61,991 nucleotides of DNA from Bacteroidota bacterium (GTDB lineage Bacteria > Bacteroidota > Bacteroidia > Flavobacteriales_C > GCA-002722245): the NCBI GenBank assembly GCA_026390935.1, contig JAPLEZ010000149.1, positions 1-61,991 on the forward strand, in the 5' to 3' direction. Within the stretch, counting starts at the first letter, position 1. Every line of letters begins with the position of its first letter. This document shows, in pieces, positions 59,986 to 60,526 of this stretch. A program made the translations under genes and the position numbers. The notes beneath the pieces are model-generated. The model saw only the letters and a list, made by a program, of their open reading frames with translations. It was not told the origin of the DNA and searched no databases.

Positions 59986-60072
59986 ATTGTGCTACCGTTA
60001 GGACACTTTTAAATTCTAATTACCGCAAAGTCTCTTTCAGTAATAGCAACACACTTAGAACGTCCTTGCGAA

Positions 60073-60474
60073 AATTTTGTACTCAAAATTGAAGCAATCT
60101 CTTTTTTTCGTTTTTATTTTGCAGCAACTAACTAAATTAATATTATGGAAAAAGGTGGCTGGGTGTATATCCTGTCGGATCAATACAATAATGTCTTGTA
60201 CACTGGTGTTAGGGCAAATTTAAAAAGTAGAATCTACGAGCATAAAACTAAACAGCATCCGACGACCTTCATATCAACATACAATGTGAATAAACTAGTT
60301 TATTTTGAGTTTTTCAGCACTATTATTGAAGCTATTGAAATGGAGAAAAAAATTAAAGGAGGTTCTTGAGCAAAGAAAATTTTACGAATCGAGAAAATGA
60401 ATAGTCGCTGGTTAGATCTGTATACAGTAGATATGGAGGGATGATGAGATTGCTTTAATTTTGAGTACAAAATT
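60073..60474 (+). mobile_element. Small inverted-repeat-bounded cassette carrying a GIY-YIG gene
   Basis: Arms 60073-60101 and 60446-60474 (29 bp, one mismatch; core TTTTGAGTACAAAATT and AAGCAATCTC) face each other around the GIY-YIG gene, giving a unit of 402 bp. The right arm begins 2 bp after the far stop codon of the gene's extended frame. The arrangement suggests a gene-carrying miniature mobile element; no target duplication could be confirmed. Confidence 0.6.
60145..60369 (+). CDS. GIY-YIG nuclease, interrupted by an in-frame TGA
   Basis: A 74-residue URI-type GIY-YIG domain: GGWVYILSDQYNNVLYTGV holds the G-W/Y-V-Y-I-L and Y-T-G motifs, LKSRIYEHK has the catalytic Arg, and AIEMEKKIKGGS has the metal-binding Glu. 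Family members normally continue GSR-KK...LIExMNPxW.DLY. Here, after TGA (60367-60369), the same frame reads AKKILRIEKMNSRWLDLYTV up to 60444. A C-to-T change of an Arg CGA codon would create this TGA. It may be a pseudogene or a truncated protein that still folds. Confidence 0.75.
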   Translation: MEKGGWVYILSDQYNNVLYTGVRANLKSRIYEHKTKQHPTTFISTYNVNKLVYFEFFSTIIEAIEMEKKIKGGS

Positions 60475-60526
60475 ATCAAAACTGGAATCCCGCTTAGGGG
60501 AGTGGGAAGTGTGTGGGTTTTAAGAT

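Follow-up and report, generated by a model that had tools for sequence, protein, structure and literature searches.

The window, a 61,991-nucleotide stretch of Bacteroidota DNA, carries at 60061–60486 on the plus strand a small GIY-YIG nuclease gene enclosed by inverted hairpin repeats. This arrangement is probably a REPtron-like unit in a decayed state, and its intact relatives would encode a candidate nuclease that recognises the hairpins of its own arms in single-stranded DNA. The kind of system is a known one, that of a GIY-YIG nuclease with dispersed cognate repeats, and the window holds a new, decayed member of it.

Gene and arms of the window unit

The gene of the window matches the Pfam profile PF01541 with E = 2.8e-13, and its frame extends on the plus strand from 60145 to 60369, where an in-frame TGA (60367–60369) ends the translation at 74 aa. 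Tyr, Tyr, Arg and Glu of the catalytic core are present in this frame, and the C-terminal part that such proteins usually have is missing from it. The remainder of the ancestral frame (60370–60444, plus strand, translated with the TGA as X) is homologous to the C-terminus of the intact relatives and closes with a second TGA at 60442–60444. In close relatives the first TGA is an arginine codon, one TGA was flagged in the window gene by a whole-genome search, and in four close relatives from sister genomes the gene is uninterrupted and both arms are present. Judged from its sequence, the window gene is probably broken by the in-frame TGA; the profile with which small GIY-YIG genes were located had R entered at this stop and served gene-finding only. 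Between the arms there is the GIY-YIG frame and nothing else, so the unit holds no transposase gene of the sort expected in a classical transposon (IS/MITE with DDE transposase), and the enzyme belongs to PF01541 rather than to the Y1 HUH transposases (PF01797) that define RAYTs and REPtrons. NCBIfam has no specific family for the small GIY-YIG protein, which by sequence belongs to the same fold family as the UPF0213 proteins of known structure (1zg2, BH0048; E = 4e-5).

The inverted repeat that an earlier note had described around the gene is real, as 60070–60101 and 60446–60477 are 94% complementary over 32 nt and the 25-nt core of the repeat occurs at two sites in the window only (0 of 100 shuffles). 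The left arm, at 60061–60101 on the plus strand, is a complete CGTC-tagged REP hairpin, CGTCCTTGCGAAAATTTTGTACTCAAAATTGAAGCAATCTC, that folds with z = -3.2, directs its tag away from the gene and ends 43 bp ahead of the ATG at 60145. Its start at CGTC was set by 50 aligned arms, in a scan permitting one tag mismatch, where each base of the tag is present in 47–49 of the 50 and conservation falls sharply beyond it. The right arm, at 60446–60477 on the minus strand, begins 1 bp past the distal TGA of the extended frame, and its outer part to ∼60486 (TTCGCAAGGACG) is unrecognisable; the outer end reads ..TTATCAAAACTGG where ..TTTTCGCAAGGACG is expected, such that the outer ∼9 bp and the tag of a full arm have been lost. 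The exact 402-bp unit earlier proposed does not stand, as its left bound missed 12 bp and the outer end of the right arm is gone, and the outer limits of the unit used here are those suggested by the intact relatives. Owing to the in-frame TGA at 60367 and the damaged right arm, the window copy looks decayed and inactive.

Recurrence of the unit and dispersal of its arms

The unit of gene plus arms is observed directly at five places, namely the window (G000:C5), G001:C122, G001:C32, G001:C9 and G002:C28. These loci have no common sequence outside the unit, and the homology of the window with the other four stops at the arms. An empty site of the window unit was sought in the sister genomes, where the two flanking genes are not neighbours, and none was readable. 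Two further small GIY-YIG genes of G000, L032 and L033, are framed by different inverted repeats (GTCCTCCTGACGAAGGAAGGATCT and GTCATCCTGAACTTGTTTCAGGATCT, respectively), and the arm family of L032 is also dispersed. For L032 empty sites are found, the unit being missing between the same neighbours in two sister genomes, G002 and G004, with flank matches 15 bp apart in G002 versus 584 bp in G000. At these sites, the one case in which presence and absence are seen directly, both the arms and the gene are missing; the flanks are 14–23% diverged, which is too far for base-level junctions or a target-site duplication to be read. Within one unit, the two arms are near-identical (46/46 in L110 and 36/36 in L126), and most genomes hold few copies of the small GIY-YIG gene only. 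The proposal of a self-promoting or hitchhiking element is partly supported by recurrence at unrelated places, by framing far above control (below) and by the L032 empty sites, but not for the window copy with its inactive appearance.

The arms had been taken for terminal repeats private to the unit; they are instead REP hairpins, most copies of which stand apart from any such gene. The window arm family is found at ∼41 places in G000, almost all without a GIY-YIG gene, and at least 13 of these places are inverted pairs, many of them 70–200 bp apart; in G002 there are >130 matches to the arm. Two subfamilies are present in G000, CGTCCTTGCGAAAATTTTGTACTCAAAATTGAAGCAATCTC and CGTCATTGCGAAAATTTTTGTACTCAAAAATTAAAGCAATCCC, the second of which has the stem ATTGC..GCAAT, an imperfect palindrome in which complementary A-T pairs come first. 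CGTC REPs have been described in Bacteroidetes as dispersed intergenic repeats with a terminal CGTC (or TGTC/CCTC) tag, a stem starting with AT and a tendency to form inverted dimers, and include dRS3 of Neisseria and RPE-4/RPE-6 of Rickettsia (Di Nocera, De Gregorio and Rocco 2013, PMC3733652). The G000 arms share with them the terminal tag, the A-T-first stem, the inverted dimers, the high copy number and the dispersal; they differ in a longer, AT-rich inner hairpin (41 nt) and in the GIY-YIG gene between the arms, whereas the CGTC REPs were described without a dedicated transposase, with no RAYT flanked by CGTC repeats and no enzyme gene found (PMC3733652). Arms of the dRS3-like type GTCATTCCC are present at L263 and L278. 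Some inverted pairs of the window-type arm frame unrelated ORFs, one lipoprotein-like and one of 77 aa, at G000:C46:5164-6002 (L066) and G000:C75:1835-2303 (L071); neither ORF has a Pfam match, and they are possibly cargo.

Association of arms with small GIY-YIG genes

The association between gene and repeat was measured on 100 small GIY-YIG loci from the class, a gene being counted as framed when the inverted repeat around it scored 30 bits or more. Inverted framing is observed in 46/100 loci versus 1/94 and 1/94 in shifted windows, which lie mostly in coding DNA and so overstate the enrichment, and 1/100 in shuffled pairs; with direct repeats included, 79/100 loci are framed. Small GIY-YIG genes are also present in many phyla besides Bacteroidota, and a second, independent sample comprised 80 relatives drawn from GTDB genomes that span >10 phyla. 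Here, inverted framing amounts to 34/79 versus 0/73 and 2/72 in shifted windows of the same kind, the pair-shuffled control being higher (12/79) because unrelated genomes share one arm. In this set, hairpins with a TTGC stem lie within ∼270 bp of 54/80 genes versus 3–4 of ∼73 positions at 1 kb away, and their tags point outward in 96 cases and inward in 31. Set against non-ORF DNA only, the density of hairpins near the gene is 4.4-fold and 3.5-fold higher, arms inside extended frames being uncounted. Among long GIY-YIG proteins (UvrC and others), such a hairpin is found upstream in 1/17.

The tree of the GIY-YIG proteins resolves two well-supported clades, A (26 proteins) and B (76 proteins, including that of the window), and REP arms are present at 56/76 clade B loci, with about a quarter of the clade having no recognisable framing repeat. 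The type of arm matches the protein. When a protein is compared with its nearest counterpart in a different genome, the arm stems agree, with at most 1 mismatch, in 27/48 cases (null mean 10.9, p = 0.0005), and the correlation of arm stem with protein (Mantel r = 0.28, p = 0.0005) holds without own-genus pairs. Copy number follows in the same direction, with a median of 19.5 TTGC arms in genomes that carry a GIY-YIG gene beside a TTGC arm versus 7, and of 3.5 AGTTC arms in genomes that carry one beside an AGTTC arm versus 1 (p ∼0.001 for each). Repeats occurring mostly without the gene and unrelated to it had been named in advance as the outcome that would speak against an element; the former is indeed seen, but the latter is contradicted by an arm type that tracks the protein.

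As a predictor of the gene, the copy number of TTGC hairpins holds only partly. In G047:C1, a single-contig genome of the Bacteroidota class, ∼400 CGTCATTGCGAGG TTGC hairpins are present as REPIN-like inverted pairs of short and long arms (sampled in L291-L300), and no small GIY-YIG gene was detected; likewise, in G084, G091, G119 and G012, all rich in TTGC hairpins, no matching GIY-YIG gene was found. Such genomes imply that the repeats can persist once the gene is gone or can spread in some other way.

The genes of clade A have different surroundings, lying mostly 24–71 bp behind tRNA genes. Across both clades a tRNA is present within 400 bp at 21/102 loci versus 1–4 of ∼95 shifted windows, and part of the tRNA recurs on the far side of the gene at 16/26 loci of clade A. 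The tRNA-adjoining loci include L205, L031, L107, L129, L152, L161, L173, L176, L193, L198, L209, L210, L218 and others. At L205 (G107:C9:904500-912000), ten tandem copies of the GIY-YIG gene follow one another with a 457-bp period, their units having in common a tRNA-Met 3′ piece and a terminator sequence. The tRNA T-arm near the clade A genes L270, L279 and L252 (e.g. GTC-ACAGG-TTCGAAT-CCTGT) has a GTC-plus-hairpin layout like that of the REP arms, a likeness that may be a coincidence or may reflect a common recognition rule.

Proposed mechanism and alternative explanations

The system comes closest to the REPtron, where a RAYT (TnpA-REP, a Y1 HUH transposase) acts on its own GTAG REPs (PMC8266576). 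In both systems a small enzyme gene lies inside inverted cognate hairpins, many gene-less hairpin pairs are present in the same genome, and enzyme and repeat type covary (PMC3116915, PMC8266576); the differences are a GIY-YIG hydrolase here versus an HUH transposase, and a CGTC tag here versus GTAG. The combination of a small GIY-YIG protein with a genome-dispersed, GTC-tagged palindrome is also that of the Ssn family. A 2025 study in Nature Communications reportedly describes these as GIY-YIG nucleases that cut single strands at specific sites and are paired with NTS repeats in Neisseria, where Ssn is said to act at the NTS and to modulate natural transformation. The literature searched held no relevant report on GIY-YIG with REP, RAYT, dRS3 or inverted repeats in Bacteroidetes.

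In the reading that we favour, an intact clade B nuclease would recognise the hairpin of its own arms in single-stranded DNA, with recognition paralleling that of GTAG REPs by RAYT and cutting paralleling that by the Ssn nucleases. Arm hairpins would be cut while DNA is being replicated or taken up. A GIY-YIG enzyme hydrolyses strands without rejoining them, and the remainder would therefore fall to host repair, which would copy arms, and at times an entire unit, into new sites; arm pairs lacking the gene would become numerous and those carrying it would stay rare. The position, outward orientation and co-variation of the arms are observed; we infer that the enzyme binds and cuts them, does so on single strands and thereby drives their spread. 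The mobility of the unit itself would be the weakest step, because a GIY-YIG hydrolase cannot join strands.

The strongest rival is homing into existing REP pairs, in which the repeats spread otherwise and a selfish GIY-YIG gene cuts REP pairs and enters them when the break is repaired through the arms that they share with it. We consider it unlikely, although gene-less pairs of the same arm far outnumber gene-bearing ones, pairs abound in some genomes that lack a small GIY-YIG gene, and the GIY-YIG fold is classically one of homing endonucleases, with the small protein showing weak similarity to group I intron endonucleases. Homing would leave arms at a site that lacks the gene, yet the sole orthologous site seen (L032) is without both in the sister genomes, a state that two steps could mimic, and the close likeness of the arms within L110 and within L126 also speaks against it. 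That the arms are MITE-like ends moved by another transposase, a RAYT or other, with the GIY-YIG gene as a passenger, is improbable. It would account for the arm pairs around unrelated ORFs at C46 and C75, and RAYTs are present in G000, where three RAYT-type transposase genes are found at C118:708-1037, C106:3146-3361 and C135:567-770 (L076-L078). Each of the three is, however, framed by an inverted repeat of its own (31.9, 58.1 and 109 bits; two share the CTTAGAAGCTTTCAGCTTC family), with no CGTC arm near any of them. RAYT as the mobiliser of the arms was therefore rejected for G000, in line with the absence of RAYTs from CGTC repeats elsewhere (PMC3733652). A random passenger, moreover, would not yield framing at nearly half of the class loci by an arm type matched to the protein.

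Very improbable, in our judgement, is a host-domesticated regulator, a nuclease that serves the host, e.g. by limiting uptake or recombination at repeats, and has ceased to spread. The role in natural transformation reported for Neisseria Ssn at the NTS would fit this, as would the few gene copies in most genomes. No single orthologous locus is seen to be strongly conserved throughout a genus; the multiple places per genome and the presence or absence between sister species look selfish, and the window copy is broken with no evident replacement of the same arm type.

A wider proposal built on the favoured reading is a tentative one: small GIY-YIG nucleases may be the missing dedicated enzymes of GTC-tagged REPs, a second class of REPtron in which a hydrolase takes the place of the HUH transposase, and in the sister clade an equivalent hairpin rule may operate on tRNA T-arms, such that its genes insert, or are copied, beside tRNA genes and duplicate a piece of the tRNA. 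CGTC REPs are spread over many phyla, and their origin can be put to a laboratory test with this nuclease, a candidate for their cognate enzyme on the grounds of position, orientation and co-variation. If the nuclease does act on its arms as proposed, this would explain why tiny GIY-YIG genes are frequent beside repeats, and would imply that enzymes of a class with no relation to RAYTs are able to found REP populations.
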